NCBI RefSeq assembly: GCF_916619195.1
Contig: NZ_CAKAKL010000002.1
Span: 1,552,001 to 1,616,000, forward strand
Source of the DNA: Inquilinus sp. Marseille-Q2685
GTDB lineage: Bacteria > Pseudomonadota > Alphaproteobacteria > DSM-16000 > Inquilinaceae
Direction: 5' to 3'
DNA length: 64,000 nucleotides
Below are positions 645-16,805 of the stretch, one piece after another. A program made the position numbers and the translations under genes. Each line of letters starts with the position of its first letter. Positions within the stretch are counted from its first letter, which is position 1. The notes below the pieces were generated by a model. That model had not been told where the DNA came from and did no database searches. It saw only the letters and a list, made by a program, of their open reading frames with translations.

Positions 645-1538
645 ATGACCGCCGTCTCCGCCGACCTCGCCCCGGCCGCCCCGTCCCGCTCCCGCCGCGG
701 CCGCTTCGCCCTGATCGCCGCCGCCCTGCTGGCGCCGATGGCGCTGATCAACCTCGTCGCCTTCGTCTTCCCGGTGCTGCGGCTGGCCCAGATCTCGTTC
801 CAGGAAAGCCGCAGCAGCGGCGTCCTGACTGACGTCTACAGCTTCCGCAACTATCTCGGCTTCTTCACCGACAGCTTCAATCTCAGCCTGATCGCGAACT
901 CGCTGGCGATGAGCTTCGCCGTGACCCTGGCGACGCTGGCCTGCGCCTATCCGATCGCGATGTTCCTGCACCGGGCGCCCGCCCATTGGCGGAACATCCT
1001 GTTCGTGATCACGGTGTCGCCGCTGCTGGTCAGCAGCGTCGTCCGCACTTATGGCTGGATGGTGCTGCTGGGCGACCAGGGGCTGGTGAACAGGGCGCTG
1101 CTGTCGCTCGGCCTGGTCCAGTCGCCGCTGCGCCTGGTCAACAACATGACCGGCGTCTTCATCGGCCTGGTCGAGATCCTGATGCCGTACATGGCGCTGT
1201 CGCTGATGGCAGGGTTCGGCCGGCTGGAGGCGAGCTATGAGGAGGCTGCGGCCTCGCTCGGCGCCGGCCCCTTCACCCGGTTCCGCCGCATCGTTCTGCC
1301 GCTGACCCTGCCCGGGATCGCGCTGGGCTGCCTGCTGTGCTTCGTGCTGGCCATCAGCTCCTTCATCACCCCGAAGCTGCTGGGCGGCGGCCGGGTCTTC
1401 CTGCTGGCGACCGAGATCTACGACCAGGCGGTGATCCAGCTGCAATGGCCGATGGCGGCGACGATCTCGGTGATCGTTCTGATCATCTTCGGCTGCGCCC
1501 TCGCCGCCTATGCCCGCATCGTCCGGCGCTTCGACTGA
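645..1538 (+). CDS. ABC transporter permease, PotB-like
   Basis: Inner-membrane permease of 297 residues, the usual length for PotB-type subunits. It has an Arg-rich cytoplasmic N-terminus, then a first hydrophobic segment at about residues 24-45 and about five more. The EAA loop that docks on the ATPase is seen as EEAAASLGAGPFTRFRRIVLPLTLPG-type sequence near residue 200. It lies 3 bases after the ATPase stop and 14 bases before the second permease, so all three are cotranscribed. Substrate unknown. Confidence 0.93.
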   Translation: MTAVSADLAPAAPSRSRRGRFALIAAALLAPMALINLVAFVFPVLRLAQISFQESRSSGVLTDVYSFRNYLGFFTDSFNLSLIANSLAMSFAVTLATLACAYPIAMFLHRAPAHWRNILFVITVSPLLVSSVVRTYGWMVLLGDQGLVNRALLSLGLVQSPLRLVNNMTGVFIGLVEILMPYMALSLMAGFGRLEASYEEAAASLGAGPFTRFRRIVLPLTLPGIALGCLLCFVLAISSFITPKLLGGGRVFLLATEIYDQAVIQLQWPMAATISVIVLIIFGCALAAYARIVRRFD

Positions 1539-1552
1539 AGGAGGGAACCGCC

Positions 1553-2344
1553 ATGGTCGGAACCACGACTCTGCCCTTCAGGCTGCTGGTGCTGCTGCTC
1601 TACGCCTTCCTGCTGGCGCCGATCCTGATCGTCGTGCCGCTGTCCTTCAGCAACGACGCCTATCTCACCTTCCCGCCCTCGGCCTGGGGCACGCGCTGGT
1701 ACGCGGCGCTGGTCCAGAACAAGGTGATGATCCGGGCCTTCTGGGTCAGCCTCGGCATAGCGGCGCTGGTCACCGCCCTGTCGCTGGCGGCCGGCATCCC
1801 CGCCGCCTACGCCATCCGGCGCTTCCGGTTCCGCGGCAGCGAGGCGCTGATGAGCCTGTTCACAGCGCCGCTCTTGCTGCCCTCGATCGTGCTGGGGCTG
1901 GCGATCCTGCTGGTCTTCGTCGACCTGCGCCTGCTCAGCACCTATCCCGGGCTGGTGGCGGCGCATCTGATCGTCACCACGCCCTATGTGATCCGGATCA
2001 TGGCGACGGCGCTGGCCACCCTGCCGCCGGCGGTGGAAGACGCGGCCGCGACGCTGGGCGCCGCGCCCCTCACCGTGTTCCGCCGGATCACCCTGCCGCT
2101 GATGATGCCGGGCCTGGTCGCCAGCGCCGCCCTGGCCTTCCTGATCTCCTTCGACGAGGTGGTGATCTCGCTGTTCGTCACCGGCCCCGGCATCACCACC
2201 CTGCCGGTCGCGATGTTCAACTACGTCGAGAGCCGGACCGACCCGATGATCGCCGCCGTCTCGGTCGTCCTCGTCGCCGCCACGCTCCTCATCATCATCC
2301 TGGTCGAGCGCTCGCTCGGCCTGTCGAAAGCGATGGGCAAGTGA
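1553..2344 (+). CDS. ABC transporter permease, PotC-like
   Basis: Second permease of the importer, 263 residues from the ATG at 1553, which is preceded by an AGGAGGGAA ribosome site. The upstream in-frame extension belongs to the previous gene's region and is rejected. Six hydrophobic segments and the EAA loop (EDAAATLGAAPLTVFRR) are visible, and the domain length matches PotC. No solute-binding protein gene is inside the window, so it is probably upstream of base 1. Its stop overlaps a possible GTG start of the next gene, suggesting translational coupling with the catabolic genes. Confidence 0.93.
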   Translation: MVGTTTLPFRLLVLLLYAFLLAPILIVVPLSFSNDAYLTFPPSAWGTRWYAALVQNKVMIRAFWVSLGIAALVTALSLAAGIPAAYAIRRFRFRGSEALMSLFTAPLLLPSIVLGLAILLVFVDLRLLSTYPGLVAAHLIVTTPYVIRIMATALATLPPAVEDAAATLGAAPLTVFRRITLPLMMPGLVASAALAFLISFDEVVISLFVTGPGITTLPVAMFNYVESRTDPMIAAVSVVLVAATLLIIILVERSLGLSKAMGK

Positions 2345-2361
2345 CCCTCGCTCCCGCTGCC

Positions 2362-3117
2362 ATGGAGTCTCCGTCGAACATGGATCGTCTGGCCCTCTGG
2401 ATGTCGCATCCGCACTTCTCCTACGTGGAGATGGCGCATCTCTGCGGCTTCCGCACCCTCGTCATCGATGTCGAGCACGGCACCTTCGACCTGCCGGACC
2501 TCGACCGCTTCCTGGCTTTCACCAAGGCCAAGGGCATCTCGGTCCTGGCCAAGGTGCTGGCGCCGACCACGGAGGCGATCCAGCAGGTGCTCGACTTCGG
2601 CGCCGACGGCGTCGTCATCCCGCACCTCCTCGGGGTCGAGCACACCAGGGCGGTGACCGCCGCCGCGAAGTTCCCGATGCGCGGCATCCGCAGCTATTCC
2701 GGCGGCCGGCCGGCCGGATATGCCCGTCCGAGCAGCGCCTATTTCGACGAGGAGAACCGGCGCACCCGCTGCTACGCCATGATCGAGACCGCCGAGAGCC
2801 TGGCCGAGGTCGAAGGCATCCTGGGCCTCGACACGGTCGACGGGCTGTTCCCCGGCCCGTCCGACCTGGCGCTGGCGCGCGGCCGCGGCGCCTATGAATT
2901 CGGCGAATCCGACCGCGCCGACCTGGCCCGCTGCGCCCGTGCCGCGCGCGCCGCCGGCAAGCCCTGGATCATGCCCGCCTGGACCGCGGCGGAGCGCACA
3001 TTCGCCCTGGCCGAGGGGGCGGCCCAGCTGGTGGTCGCGACCCAGACCATGGTCGTCCGCCAGGGCTTGGCCGGGACGCTCGATGCGCTGAAGCGCGAAG
3101 CCGTGCTCGCCGCCTGA
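2362..3117 (+). CDS. HpcH/HpaI-type aldolase family protein
   Basis: About 251 residues with a class II pyruvate aldolase (HpcH/HpaI, CitE-like TIM barrel) pattern. Such enzymes cleave 2-keto-3-deoxy or 4-hydroxy-2-keto acids with a divalent metal. Visible are VIDVEHGTFD near the N-terminus, the ADGVVIPHL strand, the GIRSYSGGRPAGYA loop, the metal-binding glutamate in MIETAES and the GPSDLA signature. The strand that normally carries the catalytic Arg (usually VRVP) reads LAKVLAP, a Lys substitution, so activity is not assured. Starts at GTG 2341 (overlapping the previous stop) or ATG 2380 are also possible. It is followed by a nitrilase and an RraA-like gene. Confidence 0.85.
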   Translation: MESPSNMDRLALWMSHPHFSYVEMAHLCGFRTLVIDVEHGTFDLPDLDRFLAFTKAKGISVLAKVLAPTTEAIQQVLDFGADGVVIPHLLGVEHTRAVTAAAKFPMRGIRSYSGGRPAGYARPSSAYFDEENRRTRCYAMIETAESLAEVEGILGLDTVDGLFPGPSDLALARGRGAYEFGESDRADLARCARAARAAGKPWIMPAWTAAERTFALAEGAAQLVVATQTMVVRQGLAGTLDALKREAVLAA

Positions 3118-3144
3118 CCCCTTCCCTTCCTTCGGAGCCTTGCC

Positions 3145-3969
3145 ATGAAGATCAGCCTGATCCAGACCAACCCGCAGACCGACCGGGCCGAGAATCTCGG
3201 CAACACCAAGGTGCTGATGGAGCAAGCCATCCAGACCGACAAGCCGGACCTGCTGGTGCTGCCGGAATATTTCGAGCTCTATGGCGGCGGCATCGCCGAC
3301 AAGGTGGCGGCGGCCGAGCCGGCGCCGGGCGGCGCCGCCTATGCCATGGCGCAGGGCGTGGCCAAGGCCAACCGCGTCTGGGTCCATGCCGGCAGCATGA
3401 TGGAGCGCATCCCGGGCGAGAACCGGATCTACAACACCACGGTCGTGTTCGACCGCGACGGGCGCGAGGCCGCGCGCTACCGCAAGATCCACCTGTTCGA
3501 CATCGTCGCGCCGGACGGCACCGCCTATCGGGAATCGGCGACGGTGCGGCCGGGCGAGGACGTCGTCCTTTATGACCTCGAGGGGCTGAAGGTCGGCTGC
3601 GCCATCTGCTACGACGTCCGCTTCGCCGAGCTGTTCCTGGCGCTGGCGAAGCAGGGCGCCGACGTCATCGTGCTGCCCGCCGCCTTCACCCTGCAGACCG
3701 GCAAGGACCATTGGGAGGTGCTGGCCCGCGCCCGGGCGATCGAGACCCAGGCCTATGTCGCCGCCTGCGGCCAATGGGGGGCCTATGTCGCGAACGGCGA
3801 GAAGCGCCACACCTACGGCCATTCGCTGGTCTGCGACCCCTGGGGCCATGTCGTCGCCCGCGCCTCGGACGGCGTCGGCTTCGTCACCGCCCGGATCGAC
3901 CCGGAGCAGATCCGCCGGGCTCGCACATCGATCCCGATGAGCGACCACCGCCGCCTGGCCTGCGCGTGA
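3145..3969 (+). CDS. Carbon-nitrogen hydrolase (nitrilase superfamily amidase)
   Basis: 274-residue cytoplasmic hydrolase of the nitrilase superfamily, most like Nit/omega-amidase and carbamoylase members, which hydrolyse an amide or carbamoyl C-N bond. The catalytic triad is complete: Glu41 (LPEYFE), Lys114 (RKIHLFD) and Cys155 (CAICYDVRF). Length matches the family. A CGGAG ribosome site precedes the ATG. It sits between the aldolase and the RraA-like gene in one transcription unit, suggesting the imported compound carries an amide or carbamoyl nitrogen. The exact substrate is not identifiable. Confidence 0.92.
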   Translation: MKISLIQTNPQTDRAENLGNTKVLMEQAIQTDKPDLLVLPEYFELYGGGIADKVAAAEPAPGGAAYAMAQGVAKANRVWVHAGSMMERIPGENRIYNTTVVFDRDGREAARYRKIHLFDIVAPDGTAYRESATVRPGEDVVLYDLEGLKVGCAICYDVRFAELFLALAKQGADVIVLPAAFTLQTGKDHWEVLARARAIETQAYVAACGQWGAYVANGEKRHTYGHSLVCDPWGHVVARASDGVGFVTARIDPEQIRRARTSIPMSDHRRLACA

Positions 3970-3971
3970 GG

Positions 3972-4643
3972 ATGCCGATGTACACGATCAACGACATGCC
4001 GGCGCCGGTGCCGCCGGCCCATCTCGACCTGCTGTCCGGCGTCGAGACCGCGACCGTCGGCCACTGGCGCCTGTTCGGCTTCATGCATCACGGCATCCAG
4101 CCGCTGCTGCGCGGCAAGCGCGTGGTCGGCACCGCCGTCACCGTCGCCATCCCAGGGCCGGATTCGACCCTGCTGCACCATGCCACCGGCCTGCTGCGGC
4201 CAGGCGACATCCTGGTCGTCGACCGGCTCGGCGACGACCGCCACGCCTGCTGGGGCGGCGGCGTCACCGTGGCGGCCAAGGCGGCGGGCGCGGTCGCCGG
4301 CATCGTCGACGGCCCCTGCACCGACCTGGCGGAGATCGAGGACTCCGACTTCCCGATCTGGGCCCGCGGCATCTCGCCGATCACCACCCGGCTCTACGAT
4401 CTCGGCGGCGGCCTCAACATCCCGGTCGCCTGCGGCGGCGTGGTGGTGATGCCCGGCGATGCCATCCTGGCCGACGACAGCGGCGTGCTGGTGCTGCCGC
4501 GGGCGGAGGTCGAGGCGGTGGCGCGTGAGGCGCTGCGGCGGCAGGAGACGGGGCGCGAGCGCGAGCTGACGGTCAAGCACGGCGCCAAGCTGGGCGAGGT
4601 ATCGGGGGCCAGCCGCAAGGTGCTCGCCCGCGGCGCGGCCTGA
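3972..4643 (+). CDS. RraA-like protein (HMG/CHA aldolase-type fold, altered active site)
   Basis: About 223 residues of the RraA/HMG-aldolase family (swivelling beta-alpha-beta fold), members of which are 4-hydroxy-4-methyl-2-oxoglutarate aldolases, oxaloacetate decarboxylases or RNase E inhibitors. Seen are the GDILVVDRLGDDRHACWGG metal/substrate loop and the VDGPCTDLAEIE segment. In the aldolases this last segment normally reads G-x-x-R-D; here the Arg is replaced by Thr while the metal-binding Asp remains, so aldol cleavage may be lost or changed. ATG 3972 gives the longest form, but GAGG at 3968-3971 is better spaced for ATG 3978. It immediately follows the nitrilase stop. Confidence 0.82.
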   Translation: MPMYTINDMPAPVPPAHLDLLSGVETATVGHWRLFGFMHHGIQPLLRGKRVVGTAVTVAIPGPDSTLLHHATGLLRPGDILVVDRLGDDRHACWGGGVTVAAKAAGAVAGIVDGPCTDLAEIEDSDFPIWARGISPITTRLYDLGGGLNIPVACGGVVVMPGDAILADDSGVLVLPRAEVEAVAREALRRQETGRERELTVKHGAKLGEVSGASRKVLARGAA

Positions 4644-4722
4644 CACGGCCCTTTACGCGGGGCTCGCCGGCGCCCTCAATCAGGGTCCCTGCAGATCCTG
4701 GCCGGGGCGCCGCCGACCCGCC

Positions 4723-5640
4723 ATGAACATACGCTTCCTCGAGACCGCGATCTGGCTGTCGCGCCTGCGCAGTTTCCGGGCCACGGCCGAGCGCCTGAAC
4801 ATCACCCAGGCCGCGATCTCCAGCCGGGTCGCGGCGATGGAGCAGGAGCTGGGCTTCAAGCTGTTCGAGCGCGACGCCCGCGACGTGCGCCTGACCGCCG
4901 AGGGCCAGACCTTCGTCGACGGCGCGCAGGAGATCGTGGCGCGGTACCGCGAGCTGGTCTGCAGCCTGGATCCGACCTCGGCGATCAAGGGCGCGGTGCG
5001 GATCGGCCTGGTGCCGAGCATGGCCCTGACCCTCCTGCCCGACATCGCCGGCACGCTGCGCCGGCAATTCCCCAACGTCCGCTTCTCGGTCACCACCGAC
5101 GCCTCCCACACCATCCTGCAGAAGCTGTCGGACCGGGAGATCGACGTGGCGCTGGTCATCCGGCCGGACAAGGCGGACGGCCTCAAGATCCTCGACCTCT
5201 GCACCTACGGGATGTTCTGGATCTCCGGCCCCACCCTGCTGCCCCGCCCGGCCGATGAGACGCTGGGGCCCGAGGACATCGCCGCCCATGCCATCATCTC
5301 CTACGAACCCGGGGCGCATAACCATGCCCGGCTGCTGGACTATCTCGCCGGGGCCGGCGACCCGGTGCTGCACTACTCCAACTCGCTGTCGACCACGGTC
5401 AGCATGACCATCGCCGGCATCGGCATCGCCGTGCTGCCGCCGGTGGTGATCCAGCGCGAGCTGCGCGAGGGCATCCTGCACGTGCTCAAGGTGCACCCGC
5501 CCTTCCCCGCCACCCGCTATGCCGCTGTGCATCTCGACCCGCCGATGTCGCGCCTGCCGTCGCTGGTCGCCGCCATCGCCCGCGACGCGGCCGCCGCCTT
5601 CTGCTGCCTCTACGACGCCTCGCTCGCGCATCAGGGCTGA
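4723..5640 (+). CDS. LysR-family transcriptional regulator
   Basis: 305-residue LysR-type regulator, probably responding to the compound handled by the upstream importer/hydrolase genes. The N-terminal winged helix-turn-helix is at about residues 1-60 (ATAERLNITQAAISSRVAAMEQELG), followed by a linker and a two-lobed periplasmic-binding-like effector domain. It is encoded on the same strand as its presumed targets, 79 bases downstream of the RraA-like gene, which is atypical for LysR genes (usually divergent). It may be autoregulated as part of the unit. No strong ribosome site is seen before the ATG. Confidence 0.92.
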   Translation: MNIRFLETAIWLSRLRSFRATAERLNITQAAISSRVAAMEQELGFKLFERDARDVRLTAEGQTFVDGAQEIVARYRELVCSLDPTSAIKGAVRIGLVPSMALTLLPDIAGTLRRQFPNVRFSVTTDASHTILQKLSDREIDVALVIRPDKADGLKILDLCTYGMFWISGPTLLPRPADETLGPEDIAAHAIISYEPGAHNHARLLDYLAGAGDPVLHYSNSLSTTVSMTIAGIGIAVLPPVVIQRELREGILHVLKVHPPFPATRYAAVHLDPPMSRLPSLVAAIARDAAAAFCCLYDASLAHQG

Positions 5641-5704
5641 ACGCTCCCGCCCCAGCCCGAATCCCGGTACGGTCGGCACTCTCGGCGGCAGAGGGCTGGA
5701 TCTC

Positions 5705-6457
5705 ATGGAACAGGATCGTCTCTACCAGGATCCGGACCTGGCCGATTTCTACGACGTCGAGAACGCCTGGTCCGCGGACCGGGATAGCTGCCGGTCGCTG
5801 GCCGAGGGGTGCGCTTCGGTTCTCGACCTCGGCTGCGGCACCGGCTGGCTGGCCGCGACGCTGGCGGCCGAGGCGGAGCGCACGGTGTTCGGCGTCGACC
5901 CCGCCGGCGCCATGCTGGACATCGCCCGGGCGCGCCCCGGCGGCAACCGGGTGACCTGGGTCCAGGGCGACGGCCGCAGCGTCCGGCTGGGCCGTCGCTT
6001 CGACCTGGTGGTGCTGACCGGCCATGCCTTCCAGGTGTTCCTGACGCCCGGGGACCAGCTGGAGGCGTTGCGCACCATCGCGGCGCATCTGGCGCCGGAC
6101 GGGCGGTTCATCTTCGACAGCCGAAACCCGGCGATCGAGGAATGGCGGGAGTGGACGCCGGAGGCATCGGCCCGCCGGATCGACCATCCCCGCTTCGGCG
6201 CCGTGGACGCCTGGAACGATGTCGAGCACGATCCGGACACGGGCATCGTGACCTACGGCACCTATTACCGCATCGTCGCCGACGGCCGCCTGCTGTCCTC
6301 GCGCTCGCGCATCGCCTTTCCGCCCCGCGCGCAGCTCGAGGCCCTGATCGGCGAAGCCGGGCTGGCGATCGACACCTGGCTGGGCGACTGGACGGGCGCC
6401 CCCTGGACGCCGGGCTCCCGCGATCACATCCCGCTGGGACGGCTGCCGCGGAGCTGA
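5705..6457 (+). CDS. Class I SAM-dependent methyltransferase
   Basis: 250-residue protein with a Rossmann-type methyltransferase domain. Motif I is VLDLGCGTGW at about residues 40-49, a following acidic strand end (FGVDPAG) binds the SAM ribose, and a later strand reads FDLVVLTGHAFQVF. The C-terminal third is the lid region of Methyltransf_25/11 proteins. The ATG at 5705 was chosen over upstream in-frame codons because those lie inside the LysR gene. It stands alone between the LysR gene and a hairpin. The methyl acceptor is unknown. Confidence 0.88.
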   Translation: MEQDRLYQDPDLADFYDVENAWSADRDSCRSLAEGCASVLDLGCGTGWLAATLAAEAERTVFGVDPAGAMLDIARARPGGNRVTWVQGDGRSVRLGRRFDLVVLTGHAFQVFLTPGDQLEALRTIAAHLAPDGRFIFDSRNPAIEEWREWTPEASARRIDHPRFGAVDAWNDVEHDPDTGIVTYGTYYRIVADGRLLSSRSRIAFPPRAQLEALIGEAGLAIDTWLGDWTGAPWTPGSRDHIPLGRLPRS

Positions 6458-6501
6458 GGCGCCTCTACTCTCACGCGAATGCTGTTGACCGAAACGCCGC
6501 C

Positions 6502-6524
6502 ATCCCCCCTGATTGAGGGGGGAT
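6502..6524. terminator. Hairpin downstream of methyltransferase gene
   Basis: Perfect 9-bp inverted repeat, ATCCCCCCT / AGGGGGGAT, with a 5-base loop (GATTG), lying 45 bases after the methyltransferase stop. A second G-run and TTTT follow at 6528-6537. It may act as a terminator separating this gene from the FecR-fusion gene. It also resembles the C-run/G-run intergenic palindromes common in high-GC alphaproteobacteria. Confidence 0.5.
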
Positions 6525-6625
6525 CGAGGGGGATTTTCGCTTTATTGATCTGAATTGGCGCGGCCGGGATGCCGGGCGTTTTGCCGGATGCCCACCAGGG
6601 CTATTGACGGACGGAGACATATTCG

Positions 6626-9600
6626 ATGCACCGCCTCATTCTTCGGCGGATCCTGTTGGGCTCGCTGAGCCTGGTTGTCCCACTCTTCGGTTTCGATACG
6701 GCCGATGCCGCGGTGGTGCCGCGCGACGGCAGGGCCGCGGGCTCGATCGTCCAGGCCACGGGGCAGTCGGAAGTCCGGTTCACCGCCGCGGAGCTCTGGC
6801 AGGATGCGGAGGTGCAGCAGGTGCTGCTGGGCGGCGACGCGCTGCGCACCGGCCCTCTGGGCGGGCTGGCGATCCTGTTCGCCGACCAGACCCAGATCCG
6901 TGTCCACAACAACTCCCAGCTGCTGGTGCGCGAGGTCGGCGGCGACGGCGGCCCGGCACGGATGGACCTGAACTCCGGCGCGGTGTGGGCCCGGGCGGTG
7001 ACCGGCGGCAGCGGCGTCGAGATCACGACGCCGGCCGCGACCGCGGCGATCCGCGGCACCGACTGGTCGCTGGCGGTCGGGCCGGACGGCAAGACCACGC
7101 TGGTCGTGCTGTCCGGCGTGGTCGAGCTGAGCAACGAATTCGGCCGGGTCAGCGTCGGCCGCGGCGAGGCGGCGGTGGCGGCGGTCGGCAGTGCGCCGGC
7201 CAAGATCATCGTCACCACGCCGAAGGACCGGGAGCAGATGCTGTTCTGGCTGGCGCCGGGCAGCGTGTTCGACTCCTTCCCCGCCTCCCATACCGACGCC
7301 CGCAGCCGGCGCGAGGCGCATCGCCGCATCACCGCCGTGCCGGAAGCGCAGCGCTCGGCCGAGGACTGGCTGTCCCTGGCCGAGGCGGATCTCGATATCG
7401 CCGGTCCCGCGGCGGCGGCCGCCGATCTGGCCAGGGCCCGCGCCGCCGGGCCGCTGACGCCGGAGCAGGCGGTGCGGGCGGATCTGCTGGACGGCCTCCT
7501 GGCCGGCCGGGCCGGCCGCGAGGAGGACGCGGCCCGAGCCTTCGCCGCCGCCGAGGCCGGCAGCACCGGACGGTTGCGGCGGCGGGCCCGCCTCGGCCGC
7601 TTCTTCGCCGGCTCGGCCTCCGGCGAGGCTGTCGACGCGGCGGCGATGGAGCGCGAGCTCGTGGCCAGCGACGATCCTCTCGCGGTCGACGGGCTGGCCT
7701 GGCTGCAGGCGATCCGGGGCGACCTGCCGGCCGCCTATGCCACGCTGCAGGCAGGCGGCCGCCGCTTCCCCGGCGATCTCGACATCGCCGTCAGCGAGGC
7801 CATGGCGGCGCAGGTGCTGGGCGACCGCGAAGGGATGCGGCAAGCGGCCGATCGCGCCCTGGCGATCGACCCCGACGATCCGGAGGCCCTGCGCATGGCC
7901 GCCGACTACAAGGTCGCCTTCGCCAACGACCCGGACGGGGCGCTGACGCTGCTGCGCCGTGCCACCGGCGAGGCCCCGGGCGATGCCGAGAGCTGGAACG
8001 ATCTCGGCATGCTGCACGACATCCGCGGCGGGCTGGTCGAGGCCGACGCCGCGCTGGAGAAGGCCGCCGCGCTCGACCCCGACGCCGCCAACATCCGGGT
8101 CAACCAGGCGGTCCTCTACCTCGAGGCCGGCATGATTGACCGCGCCCGCGAGCTGCTGGGCCAGGCGCGGGAGATCGACCCCGATTCCGGCATCACCCTG
8201 ATCGGCGAAGGCATCCTGGCCTTCGAGACCGGCGACGTCGATGGCGCGCTGGAGAAGTTCCTGGCCGCCTCGGCCGCCAACCCCGCCTCCTCGGAGAACC
8301 TGCAGGGCCTGGCGGCGGCACAATACGCGCTCGGCGAGACCGGACAGGCGAAGCAGACGCTGGAGAACGCCGACCGGCTGGACCCGAACGACCCGATGGT
8401 CCCCAATCTGCGGACCATCATCGCGATCGACGAGGCCGAGGCCGACGAGGCGATCCGCAACGCGCGGGAGATCGCGGCCCGCAGCGGCCAGGGCAGCCTG
8501 GCGCTGAGCACCGCCAATCTGGGCAACCGGCTGGGGCCGCCGCTGCTGGCGGCCTATGCCAATCTCGGCCTGCTGGACTGGGGCCGCTACTACAATGACC
8601 GCACCGACGACCCGTTCAGCGCCGCCAGTTTTCTCGGCCGGTCGGTCATCACCCAGCCGACCGTGTTCGGCGCCGACCCTGCCGTGCCCGACGGCGTGGC
8701 TCTGTCGGAGGAGATCCAGGCCCTGCTGCTCGACCCCACCCTGGCCTCGTCGCGGCAGCGCCGCACCGACCTGCTGCCCCGGCCGTTCCTGGACGCGCAG
8801 CTGACCGGCGGCATCGTCGCCGTCGGCGACACGCTCGGCCACAGCGAGGGGGTCGACATCGACGCCTACACCGTCACGCCGATCCCGCTGGCCTTCCGGG
8901 CCAGCTTCGCCCGGATCGACAATGACGGCGACGACCATGGCGACGACAGCGACAGCTGGACCGGCTCCGCCCGCCTCGCCGGCCGCCTGGGTCTGGGCGG
9001 CAGCTTCGCGGTCTGGATCGATGGCGGCGAGGCCGGCAACGAGCTCGCTGGAACCTCGTTCGCGCCCACCCCCTTCGCCAGCGAACGCAGCCGGGCCGTG
9101 TCCGGCGGCCTGGCCTTCGGCTACCGCCTCGGCGAGCGCAGCCGCCTGACCGCCATGGTCCAGCACAGTCATGTCGAGCGCCGGGACTTCAACCGCACGC
9201 TGCTGTTCGACATCCCCGACCGGGATTTCCCGGAGTTCGTCAGCTACGACATCCGGGCCGACGACATCGTCAAGCAGCACAACGACACCACCATGGGCGG
9301 CCTGGCCCATGTCTGGGGCACGGGCGACATCACGGTCCAGTACGGCTTCGAGGTGCAGTCGACGCGGTCGACCCTGACCTTCGACGAGACCGTCTGGACC
9401 TCGATCAAGCTCTTCGGCCGGGAGGTGCAGTCCGACCGCGGCCACGAGACGGCCCGCAGCGAGATCGAGCAGACGCTGGGCCGCGTCTTCGCCTACGGCC
9501 GCTGGACGCCCACCCCCGACCTGCGGATCGATTTCGGCACCGGCATCGTGCGTGCCGGCGACGGCGGCCCCGTGCCCGACGTGGTGCTGGAGCCGCGGCT

Positions 9601-10294
9601 GGGCGTGGCGTGGTCCCCGGCCGAGGGGCACTGGCTGCGCGCCGCGGTCCAGCGCGGGGCGCAGACGCCGGGCAGCCTGACCCTGGCCCCGGTCGACACG
9701 GTCGGCATCGTGCCGGACACGCTGCCCCTCGCGACCGGCGGCGTCGCCACCAGCTATACCGCCCGCTGGGAGGCGGAGTGGACCTCGCATCTCTTCACCA
9801 GCCTGGAGGGCCAGCACCAGGAGCTGGAGAACCTGTCCTTCGCCTACCCCTCGGCCCAGCTGGTCTCGCTGGAGGTCGAGCGCGGCCGCACCGACCGGGT
9901 GACCGCCGCCGGCAACATCTGGTTCGACGGCGGGATCGGCGTCTACGGCTCGGCCTCGCTGATCCGGTCGGAGATCACCGAGGGCCTCGGCGAGGGCAAG
10001 CGGATCCCCTTCGTGCCGGACTGGACGGCGCGGATCGGCGCCGTCTGGGTGCACCCGCTGCAGATCCGGGCGCAGATCGAGCGGGTCTGGGCCGGGCCGC
10101 AGTCGAGCGGCCCGGGGCTGCCGGAGATCGACGGCTTCGGCAGCACCAACATCGCGATCAGCTGGGAGCCGCTGGACAAGCGCATCGCCCTGGGCTTCGT
10201 GATCCGCAACCTGTTCGACGAGGAGTACGACACCGCCTTCGGGGTCGAGGCGCCGGGCCGCCTGGTCGCCGCCACCGCTTCGATCCGGTTCTAG
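6626..10294 (+). CDS. FecR domain - TPR - outer-membrane beta-barrel fusion protein
   Basis: 1222-residue envelope protein of unusual architecture. Residues 1-28 form a signal peptide ending in ADA. Residues about 40-185 are a FecR domain, with ITTPAATAAIRGTDW and the preceding GDALRT and FADQTQIRVHNNS strands. Residues about 230-680 hold tetratricopeptide repeats with paired A-x-x-L-D-P motifs (ALAIDPDDPEAL, AAALDPDAAN, AREIDPDSG, ADRLDPNDP). Residues about 735-1222 are alternating aromatic/polar strands like a TonB-dependent receptor barrel, with FVIRNLFDEEYDT near the end and a terminal Phe (ASIRF) typical of BAM substrates. No plug domain or TonB box is apparent. An ACGGAG site precedes the ATG. 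The stop TAG directly abuts the next gene's ATG, so the two are coupled. Role inferred: an outer-membrane sensor or secretion component linked to cAMP signalling. Confidence 0.85.
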   Translation: MHRLILRRILLGSLSLVVPLFGFDTADAAVVPRDGRAAGSIVQATGQSEVRFTAAELWQDAEVQQVLLGGDALRTGPLGGLAILFADQTQIRVHNNSQLLVREVGGDGGPARMDLNSGAVWARAVTGGSGVEITTPAATAAIRGTDWSLAVGPDGKTTLVVLSGVVELSNEFGRVSVGRGEAAVAAVGSAPAKIIVTTPKDREQMLFWLAPGSVFDSFPASHTDARSRREAHRRITAVPEAQRSAEDWLSLAEADLDIAGPAAAAADLARARAAGPLTPEQAVRADLLDGLLAGRAGREEDAARAFAAAEAGSTGRLRRRARLGRFFAGSASGEAVDAAAMERELVASDDPLAVDGLAWLQAIRGDLPAAYATLQAGGRRFPGDLDIAVSEAMAAQVLGDREGMRQAADRALAIDPDDPEALRMAADYKVAFANDPDGALTLLRRATGEAPGDAESWNDLGMLHDIRGGLVEADAALEKAAALDPDAANIRVNQAVLYLEAGMIDRARELLGQAREIDPDSGITLIGEGILAFETGDVDGALEKFLAASAANPASSENLQGLAAAQYALGETGQAKQTLENADRLDPNDPMVPNLRTIIAIDEAEADEAIRNAREIAARSGQGSLALSTANLGNRLGPPLLAAYANLGLLDWGRYYNDRTDDPFSAASFLGRSVITQPTVFGADPAVPDGVALSEEIQALLLDPTLASSRQRRTDLLPRPFLDAQLTGGIVAVGDTLGHSEGVDIDAYTVTPIPLAFRASFARIDNDGDDHGDDSDSWTGSARLAGRLGLGGSFAVWIDGGEAGNELAGTSFAPTPFASERSRAVSGGLAFGYRLGERSRLTAMVQHSHVERRDFNRTLLFDIPDRDFPEFVSYDIRADDIVKQHNDTTMGGLAHVWGTGDITVQYGFEVQSTRSTLTFDETVWTSIKLFGREVQSDRGHETARSEIEQTLGRVFAYGRWTPTPDLRIDFGTGIVRAGDGGPVPDVVLEPRLGVAWSPAEGHWLRAAVQRGAQTPGSLTLAPVDTVGIVPDTLPLATGGVATSYTARWEAEWTSHLFTSLEGQHQELENLSFAYPSAQLVSLEVERGRTDRVTAAGNIWFDGGIGVYGSASLIRSEITEGLGEGKRIPFVPDWTARIGAVWVHPLQIRAQIERVWAGPQSSGPGLPEIDGFGSTNIAISWEPLDKRIALGFVIRNLFDEEYDTAFGVEAPGRLVAATASIRF

Positions 10295-12289
10295 ATGGCG
10301 CAGGGCCGGGTCCATGGGAGCCTGTGGCTGCCGGTCCTGCTGGCGGCGCTGCTCTTCGCCGGCCTCGTTCCCCTCGGCGCGTCGGACGGGTGGCAGGTGG
10401 TGGAGCATCGGGCCTTCGACCTGTTCTCGACCTACGACCCGCCGCGGCCGCCCGCGCACAGCGCCGTGGTGGTGGCGATCGACGAGCCGTCCTTCGCCGA
10501 GATCGGCCGGCAATGGCCGTGGCCGCGCAGCGTCCATGCCGGGCTGGCCCGGGCGCTGCGCGGCGCCGGCGCCGGGCCGATCGGATTCGACATCGTCTTC
10601 GCCGAGCCGTCGCAGCCGGCGGAGGATACCGCCCTGGCCGCGGCCCTGGCGGGCGACACCGTGCTGGCGGCCGACATCACCGCCATCGCCGACCAGCGCT
10701 TCGAACAGCGGATCCGGACCGAGCCGCTGGCGACGCTGCTGGCCGGCGGCGCCCGCTCAGGCGTCGCTTCGGTCGACCTGGATTCCGATGGCGTGCTGCG
10801 GCGCCTGCCGAACGTGCCCGATCCCTTCGCCGCGACCCTCGCGCGCCTCGCCGGGCATGAGGCCGCGCCGCCGCCCGGTGCCCTGCTGCAGTATTTCGGG
10901 CCGCCGCGCAGCTATCCGACCGTGTCCTACTATCAGGCGCTGCAGCCGGAGGGGATGCTGCCGCCCGGCTTCCTGTCCGGCCGGGCCGCGATCGTCGGCT
11001 TCAGCCTGCAGGCGGTGCCGACCGTCACCAGCGGCGGCGCCGACGCCTTCGTCACGCCCTATACGGTGAAGACGGGGCGCCTGACCGCCGGGGCCGAGGT
11101 GCAGGCCACCATCCTCGACAACCTGGTGCATGGGCTGTGGATCACGCCGGCGCCGCCCTGGTTGCCGCCCGTGGTGCTGGCCGCGCTGCTGCTGGTCGCG
11201 CTGTTCGGCACCCGCCGGCTGGGGCCGGTGCCGTCCCTCGCCGCCCTGGCGCTGCTGGCGATCGGCATCGCCGCCGGCAGCTATGCCCTGCTGCGCTTCG
11301 GCCGGGTCTGGCTGCCGCCGGTGCTGCCGATGCTGGGCACCACCGCCGCCATCATCGTCCAGGGCAGCTACGGCTTCGCCCGCGAGCAGGCGCAGCGCCG
11401 CCGCATCACCCGCGCCTTCGAGCACTACCTGGCGCCGTCGCTGGTGTCGCGCCTGGCGCAGGACCCGGGCCAGCTGCAGCTGGGCGGCGAGACCCGGGTG
11501 CTGACCGTGCTGTTCTGCGACGTCCGCGGCTTCACCACCCTGTCGGAGGAGATGAAGCAGGATCCCCAGGGCCTGACCCGCCTCCTGAACCGGATCCTGA
11601 CGCCGTTGTCCGAGGCCGTGCTGGCGACCGGCGGCACCATCGACAAGTTCATCGGCGACTGCGTCATGGCGTTCTGGAACGCGCCGCTGGACGACCCGGA
11701 CCACGCCGCCCATGCGGTCGAAGCCGCCCGCCGGATGCTCGCGGAGATCGCCGCGCTGAACGAGTCGCTGCGGCGGGAGGGTGTGGCCGTCCCGATCGCG
11801 ATCGGCATCGGCATCAACACCGGCACCTGCGTGGTCGGCAACATGGGCTCGGACCGGCGCTTCGACTATTCGGCGCTGGGCGACAGCGTCAACCTCGCCT
11901 CGCGCCTCGAAGGCGCCTGCAAGCGCTATGGCGTGGGCACGGTGATCGGGCCGGACACCGCCCTGGCTCTCGCCGGCCGGGCGCCGCTGATCGAGCTGGA
12001 CCGGCTGGTGGTCAAGGGCCGGACCGAGCCGGCGGCGGTCTACACGCTGCTCGCCCATCGCAGCGTCGGGGACGAAGCCTATCGGGCGCTGGCCGGCCGG
12101 CACGAGGCGGCGCTCGCCGCCTACCGCGCCCGCCGCTGGGACGAAGCGCGGACGGCCTTCCTGGAATGCCGGGACATCGAGCCGTCGCTGGCCGCCCTGT
12201 ACGACCTCTACGTCCTGCGCATCGCCGAGCACGAGCGCCACCCCCCGCCCGAGGCCTGGGCGGGGGAGACGATCGCCATGGAGAAATAG
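10295..12289 (+). CDS. CHASE2-domain class III adenylate cyclase
   Basis: 664-residue inner-membrane cyclase. A transmembrane helix at about 9-28 is followed by a periplasmic CHASE2 sensor domain (about 35-280), three membrane helices (about 288-358), a short linker and a class III nucleotidyl cyclase domain (about 398-580). Metal-binding Asp409 (FCDVRGF) and Asp455 are present. Lys451 (IDKFIGD) and Asp524 (RFDYSALGD) favour ATP over GTP, and Asn534/Arg538 (VNLASR) are the transition-state residues. A short helical tail follows the catalytic domain. It starts at the base after the stop of the FecR/TPR/barrel gene, so envelope input is probably transmitted through that partner to cAMP synthesis. 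The signal is unknown. Confidence 0.93.
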   Translation: MAQGRVHGSLWLPVLLAALLFAGLVPLGASDGWQVVEHRAFDLFSTYDPPRPPAHSAVVVAIDEPSFAEIGRQWPWPRSVHAGLARALRGAGAGPIGFDIVFAEPSQPAEDTALAAALAGDTVLAADITAIADQRFEQRIRTEPLATLLAGGARSGVASVDLDSDGVLRRLPNVPDPFAATLARLAGHEAAPPPGALLQYFGPPRSYPTVSYYQALQPEGMLPPGFLSGRAAIVGFSLQAVPTVTSGGADAFVTPYTVKTGRLTAGAEVQATILDNLVHGLWITPAPPWLPPVVLAALLLVALFGTRRLGPVPSLAALALLAIGIAAGSYALLRFGRVWLPPVLPMLGTTAAIIVQGSYGFAREQAQRRRITRAFEHYLAPSLVSRLAQDPGQLQLGGETRVLTVLFCDVRGFTTLSEEMKQDPQGLTRLLNRILTPLSEAVLATGGTIDKFIGDCVMAFWNAPLDDPDHAAHAVEAARRMLAEIAALNESLRREGVAVPIAIGIGINTGTCVVGNMGSDRRFDYSALGDSVNLASRLEGACKRYGVGTVIGPDTALALAGRAPLIELDRLVVKGRTEPAAVYTLLAHRSVGDEAYRALAGRHEAALAAYRARRWDEARTAFLECRDIEPSLAALYDLYVLRIAEHERHPPPEAWAGETIAMEK

Positions 12290-12299
12290 GCGCTTCGCG

Positions 12300-14242
<1,943 letters not shown>

Positions 14243-14282
14243 GCCCGCGCCCTCCCTGGGATCAGCTTTGTTGGCTGAGCTA

Positions 14283-14296
14283 ATATGACATCATAT
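14283..14296. promoter_or_regulatory. Candidate GntR operator upstream of uxuA-kdgD
   Basis: Inverted repeat ATATGA-CA-TCATAT in an AT-rich pocket between the uxuA start and the GntR stop. Its right part GACATCATAT recurs exactly at 15182-15191 before the ABC importer operon, on the other side of the GntR gene. A shared operator for this GntR regulator is the simplest reading. Confidence 0.55.
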
Positions 14297-14329
14297 GACT
14301 GATGACAAGCCGGAACGCGGCGGTGCCGG

Positions 14330-15070
14330 TCAGGATCCGGCGTCGGCCGGCAGCCCGCCCAGGGCGCGGTAGCGGCGCTGGCTTTCGGTCAGGTGATGAC
14401 GCATCGCCAGGCGGGCGCCGTCCGGGTCCTGGCGCTCGATCGCCTCGATGATCCGGGCATGCTCGACGATCACCTTGCGCAGATAGCTGGTCGTCGCCTC
14501 GGCCGATTCGCCCAGCCGGCTGCGCGGGATGGTTCGCTTGCCGAGATAGGTCAGGACATCGCTGTAGAAGTGGTTGTTGGTGGCTGCGGCGATCGCCAGG
14601 TGCAGCCCGAAATCGGCGTCGACGGCGCTGCCGCCGATGTCGACGGCGGCGATCATGCGGTCATGCGCCAGCAGGATCTCGGCCTCCTGCCGTGACGACC
14701 GGCGCAGCGCCGCCAGGCCCGCCGCCTCGATCTCCACCCCCATGCGGAACTCCAGCAATTCAAGGACTTCCGAAAGCCGGGTGAAGTCGCCGGACAGGAG
14801 GCCGGGCTCGGGCTCCGCCCCGGGCGTCACGAACACGCCCACCCCCTGGCGCGGCTCGACCAGCCCCCTGGCCCGCAGCTCGGCGATCGCCTCGCGCACC
14901 ACGGTTCGGCTGACGTTGAACTCGTCGATCAGGCGCTGTTCGGTCGGCAGCCTGGCGCCGACCTGCAGCGCGCCGTTGGCGATCCGCTGGCGCAGGGCCT
15001 CGGCAACCGCGACGGCCAGCTTCTCGCGGCGTCGTGGCGGTCCCGCTTCGGTTTCAGTTGGGTTCGGCAC
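14330..15070 (-). CDS. GntR-family (FadR/FCD) transcriptional regulator
   Basis: 246-residue regulator with an N-terminal winged helix-turn-helix (ALRQRIANGALQVGARLPTEQ through VSRTVVREAIAELRARGLVE, about residues 15-80) and a C-terminal FCD effector domain of about 150 residues. The start chosen is GTG at 15070, preceded by AGGAGG four bases away. A longer frame extends 107 codons upstream through the divergent promoter of the importer and is rejected. It is placed between uxuA-kdgD and the importer it probably controls. The ligand is probably a sugar acid or a pathway intermediate (inference from neighbours). Confidence 0.92.
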   Translation of the reverse strand: MPNPTETEAGPPRRREKLAVAVAEALRQRIANGALQVGARLPTEQRLIDEFNVSRTVVREAIAELRARGLVEPRQGVGVFVTPGAEPEPGLLSGDFTRLSEVLELLEFRMGVEIEAAGLAALRRSSRQEAEILLAHDRMIAAVDIGGSAVDADFGLHLAIAAATNNHFYSDVLTYLGKRTIPRSRLGESAEATTSYLRKVIVEHARIIEAIERQDPDGARLAMRHHLTESQRRYRALGGLPADAGS

Positions 15071-15134
15071 CGCTCCTCCTGATCGTCTTCGTGGGGGCGT
15101 GCCCTCCGCCCATTCGTCAATGGCAGTCACACAT

Positions 15135-15191
15135 TTGACACTTGCGAAGTCAAGATCGGCAATGATAGTCGTCAGACAACAGACATCATAT
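15135..15191 (+). promoter_or_regulatory. Divergent promoter/operator region before importer operon 1
   Basis: AT-richer stretch between the GntR gene and the first importer gene. It holds a TTGACA hexamer at 15135-15140, AATGAT at 15161-15166 (20-base spacing, longer than ideal) and the decamer GACATCATAT at 15182-15191 that also occurs in the uxuA operator. A repressor bound there would cover the region just upstream of the importer ribosome site (GGGAGG near 15200). Confidence 0.45.
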
Positions 15192-15212
15192 AAAGACAGG
15201 GAGGCTCGGACC

Positions 15213-16805
15213 ATGGGAAAGTGGAGTAGAAGGCTGCTGGCCCTGGCCGTCGCGCTGGCGCCGGCCGTTGGTTCCGCCGAGGCCAAGACGCCGGCCGACC
15301 AGTTGGTGATCGGCGCTTCGCTGGCGCAGGTGCTGTCGCTGGACCCCGGCCAGGCCACCGAATCCGGCTCCTGGATCGTCACCTCCAACATCTACGACCG
15401 GCTGGTCTCCACCGATCCGAACGACCCGACCAAGCTGGTGCCGCAGCTGGCCGAGAGCTGGGAGGTCGACGGCCGGTCGATCGTCTTCCATCTGCGCGAC
15501 GCCAAGTTCGCCTCCGGCAACCCGGTGACGGCCGAGGACGCGGCGTGGTCGCTGCGGCGGATGCTGAAGCTGAACCAGGCCGCCGCATCGCTGTGGAAGC
15601 CCTACGGCTACGACGAGACCAACATCGACAGCTTCCTCGAGGTGGTCGACCCCAAGACCTTCCGCCTGAAGCTGCCGGAAGGCACGATCGCGGAGTTCGT
15701 GCTGTTCGCCCTGTCCGGCAACAACGGCGCCGTGATCGACAAGGTCGAGGCCACCAGGCACGAGGCCAACAACGACTTCGGCAATGCCTGGCTGCGCGCC
15801 AATTCGGCCGGGTCCGGCCCCTTCGTGCTGCGCCGCTGGTCGCCGAACGAGATCATCCTGATGGACCGGAACGACGCCTTCTGGGGCGGCGCGCCGGCGA
15901 TGAAGCGGGTGGTGCTGCGCCACGTCGCGGAAAGCCAGGTGCAGCGCCTGCTGCTGGAGCGCGGCGACATCGACGTGGCGACGGCGCTCGCCGCCTCCGA
16001 CATCACCGCCTTCGACGGCAAGCCCGGCTTCGTCACCCAGCGGGTGCCGACCGGCGGCTTCTACGTGCTGGCGATGAACACCCAGAACAAGTACCTGGCC
16101 AATCCGGACGTCCGCCGCGCCATCGCCTGGGGCCTGGACTATGCCGGCATGCAGAAGACGATCATGGGCCCCTATGGCCGGGTGCGCCAGGTGCCGGTGC
16201 CGGAGAACTACCCGACCGCCCTGCCCGATCCGGGCTACACGCTCGACGTCGCCAAGGCCAAGGAGCTGCTGGCCAAGGCCGGCTTCCCGGACGGCTTCCC
16301 GCTGACCCTGAAGACGATCGCCGAGACCCCGCGCGTCGACCTGGCCACCGCCATCCAGGCCTCGCTGGCCCAGATCGGCATCAAGGTCTCGATCGAGCAG
16401 GGCAACGGCAGCCAGATCATCGCCGCCCACCGCGCCCGTGAGTTCGACCTGCTGATGCCGCTGACCGGCGGCGGCAACATGGCCGATCCGATCGGGTCCC
16501 TGCAGAACTTCACCTACAACCCGGACAACAGCCCGAACGGAAATTCCGGCTACTTCACCTGGCGGTCCGCCTGGGACATCCCGGAGCTGACCAAGCTGAC
16601 CGTCCAGGCCCGCGGCGAGGAGGACCGCGCCAAGCGCGAGGCCCTCTACACCGAGATCCAGAAGCAGTTCCTGGCCAGCGGCCCGGCCATCCTGCCGATG
16701 TTCGAGCGGTTCTCGCCGGTGGTGGTGTCGGCGGATGTCGAGAACTTCATCGGCCAGGGCTTCCGCGGCGTCCGGCTGGACATCGTCAAGAAGAAGGCCG
16801 AGTGA
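15213..16805 (+). CDS. ABC transporter substrate-binding protein, family 5 (importer 1)
   Basis: 530-residue periplasmic solute-binding protein of the dipeptide/oligopeptide/nickel (SBP_bac_5) family. A signal peptide covers about residues 1-25 (Lys/Arg start, Ala-rich core, VGSAEA). Family hallmarks include SLDPGQATESGSW, LVPQLAESWEVDG and the SGNPVTAEDAAW region. A central segment (ANSAGSGPFVLRRW and WGGAPAMKRVVLRHV) closely matches the SBP of the facing operon at 23948-25531. Neighbours point to a sugar acid or oligouronide rather than a peptide, but this is inference. First gene of a five-gene importer operon. Confidence 0.93.
   Translation: MGKWSRRLLALAVALAPAVGSAEAKTPADQLVIGASLAQVLSLDPGQATESGSWIVTSNIYDRLVSTDPNDPTKLVPQLAESWEVDGRSIVFHLRDAKFASGNPVTAEDAAWSLRRMLKLNQAAASLWKPYGYDETNIDSFLEVVDPKTFRLKLPEGTIAEFVLFALSGNNGAVIDKVEATRHEANNDFGNAWLRANSAGSGPFVLRRWSPNEIILMDRNDAFWGGAPAMKRVVLRHVAESQVQRLLLERGDIDVATALAASDITAFDGKPGFVTQRVPTGGFYVLAMNTQNKYLANPDVRRAIAWGLDYAGMQKTIMGPYGRVRQVPVPENYPTALPDPGYTLDVAKAKELLAKAGFPDGFPLTLKTIAETPRVDLATAIQASLAQIGIKVSIEQGNGSQIIAAHRAREFDLLMPLTGGGNMADPIGSLQNFTYNPDNSPNGNSGYFTWRSAWDIPELTKLTVQARGEEDRAKREALYTEIQKQFLASGPAILPMFERFSPVVVSADVENFIGQGFRGVRLDIVKKKAE

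Follow-up and report, generated by a model that had tools for sequence, protein, structure and literature searches.

A receptor–cyclase pair of the NsrA–CyaK type in Inquilinus, outside the legume symbionts

What purpose is served by a FecR domain that is joined in a single chain to tetratricopeptide repeats (TPR) and an outer-membrane-type barrel, when the gene of that chain runs directly into the gene of a CHASE2 cyclase? Two genes of Inquilinus sp. Marseille-Q2685 raise this question; they lie on a 64,000-nucleotide stretch (contig NZ_CAKAKL010000002.1, positions 1,552,001 to 1,616,000), and "the window" below means that whole stretch. Judged by homology, the two genes form a system of the NsrA–CyaK type, described before in the plant-nodulating Sinorhizobium meliloti; it is of interest here because it occurs outside the legume symbionts. 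Their parts are as follows.

6626..10294, plus strand: gene of a putative NsrA-like outer-membrane receptor of 1222 amino acids (aa), in the order FecR, helical/TPR, linker, barrel (list of open reading frames (ORFs), Pfam, homology to NsrA).
6626..6712, plus strand: probable signal peptide, receptor residues 1–29 (by eye only).
6839..7126, plus strand: FecR domain, receptor residues 72–167 (Pfam PF04773, E 4e-12).
7271..8515, plus strand: helical region and TPR solenoid, receptor residues 216–630 (Pfam TPR models).
8516..8830, plus strand: conserved linker at the position expected for a plug, receptor residues 631–735 (47.4% mean identity).
8831..10291, plus strand: predicted TonB-receptor-like β-barrel, receptor residues 736–1222, with SIRF at its end (PF00593; family profile).
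10295..12289, plus strand: gene of a CyaK-like CHASE2 class III cyclase of 664 aa (ORF list, Pfam, homology to CyaK).
10361..11200, plus strand: CHASE2 sensor domain, cyclase residues 23–302 (Pfam PF05226, E 7e-39).
11501..12022, plus strand: class III cyclase catalytic domain, cyclase residues 403–576 (Pfam PF00211 (Guanylate_cyc), E 5e-18).

The receptor aligned by BLASTP with NsrA of S. meliloti over 1235 columns (query residues 10–1222) at 36.9% identity (E 0.0), and the cyclase aligned with CyaK over 628 columns (residues 18–637) at 51.9% identity. Identity to NsrA fell from 56.5% in residues 31–200 to 40.8% for the TPR part and to 31.6% for residues 771–1222, the barrel being the most diverged part. 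Pfam found FecR and TPR in NsrA itself and recognised its barrel weakly (OMP_b-brl_3, E 0.085); despite this, the barrel parts of the two proteins aligned. NsrA is reportedly described in its 2018 primary paper as a β-barrel outer-membrane protein. Since NsrA has FecR, TPR, and an aligning barrel, the arrangement is not new, and the suggestion in a previous sequence-only reading of this DNA that the single-chain fusion with a barrel is unusual has to be given up, an arrangement of the same kind being already in print. A tblastn search with the receptor matched 86 plasmid records, foremost of Sinorhizobium, 61 of them at 80% query coverage or more; the best alignments ran from about residue 18 to 1222, and one matching record is annotated with nsrA followed by cyaK with a one-base overlap.

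The domain content and the junction were as the sequence-only reading had described them, namely, a 1222-residue chain of FecR, TPR, and a plug-less barrel, followed with zero spacing by a CHASE2 cyclase. Several TPR models matched the receptor (best stretches at about residues 390–590), TonB_dep_Rec_b-barrel (PF00593) matched residues 777–1196 above the cut-off (E 1e-10), and no plug-domain model was among the Pfam matches at E up to 1. At the junction, the sequence is CGGTTC TAG ATG. The best solved match of the cyclase was 3r5g, named CyaB, and the cyclase motifs FCDVRGFT, DKFIGD, and NLASRLEG are present. Long overlapping ORFs also occur on the opposite strand (e.g., 6542–10537, 1331 aa), as expected at a GC content of ca. 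73%; homology tells the real reading frame apart from them.

To what kind of barrel does the C-terminal part of the receptor belong? A family profile of 20 barrel sequences found eight different solved sequences with E values of 1 or lower (best E 3e-6), and all eight are named TonB-dependent-type receptors or transporters (iron, pesticin, enterobactin, FecA, YncD, and PQQ, with 4aip and 4epa among them). A C-terminal RF was found in every close relative with a readable C-terminus, while the Microvirga remnant described below ends in RL. In a simple moment calculation, the beta versus alpha periodicity was 0.87 versus 0.57 for residues 736–1222, 0.91 versus 0.64 for the FecR part, 0.74 versus 0.70 for the TPR part, and 0.59 versus 0.70, with alpha higher, for the linker; because the FecR part scores equally high, this is weak support for a barrel. 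A profile of the FecR part gave nothing convincing against solved chains (best E 0.0093). Taken from the profile matches, the C-terminal part is a predicted TonB-receptor-type barrel, with the conserved linker perhaps in place of a plug.

The same matches to TonB-dependent receptors would suit an ordinary nutrient or siderophore receptor, with the cyclase gene next to it by chance. We consider this highly improbable, given the lack of a plug model, the adjacency of a cyclase in 24 of 25 close loci (see below), and the surroundings of the pair. By Pfam, the ten flanking genes (645–15391) encode two ABC permeases, an HpcH/HpaI aldolase, a carbon-nitrogen hydrolase, an RraA-like protein, a LysR regulator, a methyltransferase, a DHDPS-family enzyme, a UxuA-like enzyme, and a GntR regulator. 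No sigma factor, including those of the extracytoplasmic function (ECF) type, and no TonB gene was found among these ten genes, to which the search was limited, in agreement with the previous statement that neither is nearby. A TPR-porin for polysaccharide export, of the PgaA or BcsC kind, would likewise combine TPR with a barrel, and weak matches to both models were obtained. These matches were confined to the TPR residues and fell far under the cut-offs (29.8 of 366.65 bits for PgaA and 15.1 of 858 for BcsC), no polysaccharide-like gene was present among the ten neighbours scanned, and the barrel profile matched TonB receptors. A porin of this kind is barely credible.

Is the cyclase a constant companion of the receptor? 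We compared 25 close loci for which the sequence downstream could be used (the window, L004, L005, L019–L022, L027, L028, L034–L041, L043, and L070–L076), the plasmid loci fetched being from 12 of the 86 records with a match. Kept outside the 25 were L023 (a fragment at a contig end), L042 (Microvirga), L081 and L082 (the places of L019 and L020), short loci at places already counted, and the divergent loci L033 and L077–L080, which are reported separately. In the DNA read around the loci, a CHASE2 cyclase was encoded directly downstream on the same strand in 24 of the 25, the window included, so the linkage with CHASE2 cyclases on which the sequence-only reading depended is conserved. By longest frames, the two genes overlap by one base in nine loci (L004, L005, L036, L040, and L071–L075) and abut without a gap in the window, L019, and L020. 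The contigs of L021 and L022 begin within the receptor gene, so that both are without the FecR end; of CHASE2, the first 76 residues are all that L022 shows. The deposited sequence of L035 is broken, and L004 and L005 come from two strains of a single species. Among the five divergent loci, three have an adjacent CHASE2 cyclase in another arrangement (upstream in L033 and L080, convergent in L077). In L080 (G482), from another class of the phylum, two divergent FecR-TPR copies lie on one strand (4925–8293 and 11163–14525) near a CHASE2 cyclase, which is upstream of one copy. On a Microvirga ossetica plasmid (L042:6770–7654), an NsrA-like barrel can be recognised by its final part alone, and the stretch read contains no match to the cyclase; to judge from what is left of it, this is a decayed copy.

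In the plasmid collection, 86 records matched the receptor, and 84 from the same genera matched the CHASE2 part; the pairing was assessed by genus tallies and not record by record. The receptor matches were distributed over Sinorhizobium (67), Ensifer (9), Rhizobium (5), Methylocystis (2), Neorhizobium (2), and Microvirga (1), and the CHASE2 matches over Sinorhizobium (66), Ensifer (9), Rhizobium (5), Methylocystis (2), and Neorhizobium (2). Further CHASE2 matches came from six records of Paraburkholderia, Caballeronia, and Eleftheria, four of which are among the matches listed, all below 30% identity.

We then asked which parts of the pair are held constant, using 20 receptor–cyclase pairs (the 24 minus L005, L021, L022, and L035) and, for identities, 18 of them (L019 and L020, near-copies of the window, being omitted). 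Mean pairwise identity in the receptor was 60.9% for residues 31–170, 61.7% for 171–215, 40.9% for 216–380, 49.1% for 381–630, 47.4% for the linker, and 38.5% for the barrel; it was 56.5% for CHASE2 and 67.1% for the cyclase. Residues 31–630 span 569–603 positions in the 20 sequences (coefficient of variation ca. 1%), while barrel length ranges from 462 to 550 (ca. 4%). One reading of the conserved FecR end, the set length of the arm, and the variable barrel is that the FecR end would meet CHASE2, the arm would act as a spacer with a fixed reach, and the barrel would bind the ligand. Trees of the receptor and the cyclase, both rooted with the divergent pair L033, agreed with r 0.954, a value reached in 0 of 2000 label shuffles, the comparison being with such shuffles and not with a species-tree control. 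Inquilinus-type sequences branch outside the named Rhizobiaceae in both trees.

Is an association of FecR with CHASE2 found beyond this family? Of the 72 CHASE2 matches obtained from 72 genomes of the class, 21 lay no more than 6 kb from a FecR match of their own contig, and a FecR-adjacent CHASE2 was present in 16 of the 34 CHASE2-bearing genomes. Random placement would give ca. 0.66 such pairs, a crude expectation, and the window pair counts among the 21. FecR and CHASE2 are neighbours beyond this family too, as the sequence-only reading had stated. The host genome supplies two of the 21, the window pair and C2:408789. The latter belongs to a second module (L014:3761–7375; C2, ca. 408–411 kb) of a CHASE2 cyclase, a Clr-like Crp regulator, and a small, divergent FecR protein. 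The best solved match of this Crp regulator was 7PZA (E 2e-36), which is S. meliloti Clr (PMC10127613). There are 12 cNMP-binding matches in the host genome, and the search against solved structures was aimed at this one alone. Beside a third host CHASE2 gene, a neighbour (L015:7349–8101) that looked FecR-like by eye was rejected, with no Pfam support and an hhalign probability of 0.2; Pfam and hhalign detected no FecR neighbour of that gene.

How might such a pair work? We propose, with a probability of roughly 85%, a trans-envelope receptor of the NsrA–CyaK type that passes an outside signal to an inner-membrane cyclase. The barrel would sit in the outer membrane and bind an outside ligand. 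The N-terminal FecR domain would be carried on a periplasmic TPR arm of nearly fixed length and would contact the product of the next gene, the inner-membrane cyclase, at its CHASE2 domain. A bound ligand would then alter the FecR–CHASE2 contact such that the cyclase makes cyclic AMP (cAMP), and cAMP could be read by a Crp-family regulator, such as a Clr-like protein with its gene elsewhere in the genome. This proposal is supported by the full-length homology to NsrA and CyaK, the same gene order, the adjacency, and the congruent trees, and further by the FecR–CHASE2 neighbourhood, the conserved FecR part versus the variable barrel, and the Clr-like Crp protein of the host. In S. meliloti, published genetics indicate that CyaK-dependent perception of an outside protein signal requires NsrA (PMC7529298, PMC13001267), and the signal activity of the purified protein uL2 depends on NsrA and CyaK (PMC7529298). 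On these genetics, the circuit that the sequence-only reading had drawn, from a sensor through a CHASE2 cyclase to cAMP with no sigma relay, was right in kind.

The same pair could operate with the opposite sign, the FecR domain holding the CHASE2 cyclase off until a ligand on the barrel releases it. Adjacency and co-inheritance are compatible with either sign, and FecR proteins of the classical relay are sigma regulators. For S. meliloti, PMC7529298 reports that the bioassay becomes more sensitive when nsrA is overexpressed and that perception requires NsrA, which fits a positive receptor; inhibition by FecR is an improbable alternative here.

Several observations weigh against the trans-envelope receptor reading, in addition to the terms on which the tree agreement and the neighbourhood count were given. 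Pfam PF00593 detects the barrel in only 11 of the 20 homologues (E up to 0.01). On a plasmid of Sinorhizobium sp. RAC02 (L038), unrelated genes come after an intact receptor of 1224 aa, and there is no cyclase match within 5 kb on either side of it. The divergent loci L078 and L079 have no nearby match to the CHASE2 of the window, a search that a distant CHASE2 would escape. Because L038, L078, and L079 are without a cyclase match, the pair is not obligatory. L038 is an orphan receptor; by analogy with NsrA, which serves CyaD1/D2, it perhaps works with CHASE2 cyclases encoded at other places. In Inquilinus limosus L021, 318 bases separate the two genes, and the conservation of FecR could reflect folding and not an interface. 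The gap of L021 holds an element with 45-nucleotide inverted arms (L021:2821–3001), a 21-base piece of which was not found in the window at up to 3 mismatches.

How widespread is the module? A scan of genome contigs with the receptor protein gave five loci (L019–L023), with a single-sequence query beyond which an alignment would reach further. The nearest, L020–L023, are titled I. limosus, with best-segment identities of 87–90%. L019 (NZ_VCCH02000014.1), at 90% identity, comes from a record with the title Mycobacterium sp. KBS0706, which is probably a mislabel. A full-length receptor profile found at least 3 of 385 genomes of the class, with the best two candidates per genome scored; as it was a poor query, a profile of the FecR part was used. 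With the latter, 4 of the 385 genomes matched, among them the divergent G057, and at the level of the phylum 11 of 398 genomes matched, including three divergent ones from other classes; both counts are lower bounds from the best eight candidates per genome. CHASE2 matches occurred in 186 of the 385 genomes of the class. In the order of the host, the FecR part was found in 4 of 17 genomes, all four in the genus of the window (4 of 6 there, host included), and in the order of G122 (two genomes), only G122 matched. The NsrA-type module is rare. The receptor–cyclase pair is also present in Methylocystis, and the receptor in an isolate from an algal phycosphere.

These hosts bear on the origin of the receptor. 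Tentatively, and as an unlikely reading on present evidence, NsrA–CyaK might have arisen as a general alarm receptor, with an outer-membrane barrel for released cationic cell debris, such as the free ribosomal protein uL2, and a FecR-TPR arm that reaches CHASE2 to carry the signal inward, working with neither TonB nor a sigma factor, and have been reused by legume symbionts. We entertain it because of the pair in Inquilinus and Methylocystis and the receptor in the phycosphere isolate, because plant, yeast, and bacterial extracts as well as purified Escherichia coli uL2 reportedly have signal activity (PMC7529298), and because of an acidic excess of the barrels, D/E outnumbering K/R in 19 of the 20 examined (family barrels only, counted over whole barrels rather than exposed loops). 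The exception, the Methylocystis barrel with 51 D/E and 55 K/R, counts against it. An electrostatic contact of uL2 with acidic loops of the NsrA barrel has been proposed by the authors of PMC7529298.

How does the pair compare with known systems? Like the FecA–FecR–FecI siderophore relay, it combines a FecR domain with a TonB-type barrel; unlike that relay, it has no plug model and no sigma factor in the ten neighbours, and its FecR domain is fused to the barrel behind the probable signal peptide. To our knowledge, the route from a sigma-less outer-membrane receptor to an inner-membrane enzyme is unsettled, even for NsrA. In magnetotactic bacteria, mtxA is followed by a gene with resemblance to adenylate cyclase and CHASE2, and TPR are discussed in the paper on MtxA; the accessible portion of that paper describes no outer-membrane barrel, and FecR has 0 occurrences in its text (PMC4439547). 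LysM-FecR genes cluster with CHASE2 histidine kinases in Burkholderiales and Pseudomonas (PMC5192318), and in Campylobacterota a CHASE2 cyclase accompanies a FecR outer-membrane protein, a TPR protein, and a phosphodiesterase (PMC9239204). According to the excerpts of these two papers, a FecR partner stands beside a CHASE2 sensor as in the window, whereas FecR and TPR each have a gene of their own, and a barrel fusion is not spelled out. The Campylobacterota FecR protein may nevertheless be closer to NsrA than described there, because it is termed an outer-membrane protein and PMC9239204 cites the NsrA paper.

The closest counterpart is NsrA–CyaK of S. meliloti, encoded on pSymB. No paper on NsrA in Inquilinus was found in the literature searched, which omits most subscription journals, and a search for Inquilinus with adenylate cyclase gave only papers unrelated by title; the passages covered contain no description of this pair in Inquilinus. 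The two systems differ in their hosts, and the window data, from an Inquilinus genome, say nothing of plant signalling. The acidic excess of the barrel is smaller in the window than in NsrA (65 D/E to 42 K/R versus 74 to 37). Immediately upstream of the receptor gene lies a methyltransferase gene in the window; a DUF5706 gene takes this place before nsrA in S. meliloti and before its homologue in N. galegae. Common to both are homology over nearly the full length, the FecR-TPR-barrel and CHASE2-cyclase domains, the gene order, and a near-zero spacing (0 versus a one-base overlap). Far from the alfalfa symbiont, the Inquilinus and Methylocystis homologues provide a natural comparison set, with a near-constant arm, a conserved FecR, and a variable barrel, and they suggest an origin of the receptor other than in legume nodules. 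The interest of the pair lies in its position outside the legume symbionts, in a different kind of bacterium from that in which NsrA–CyaK is known.

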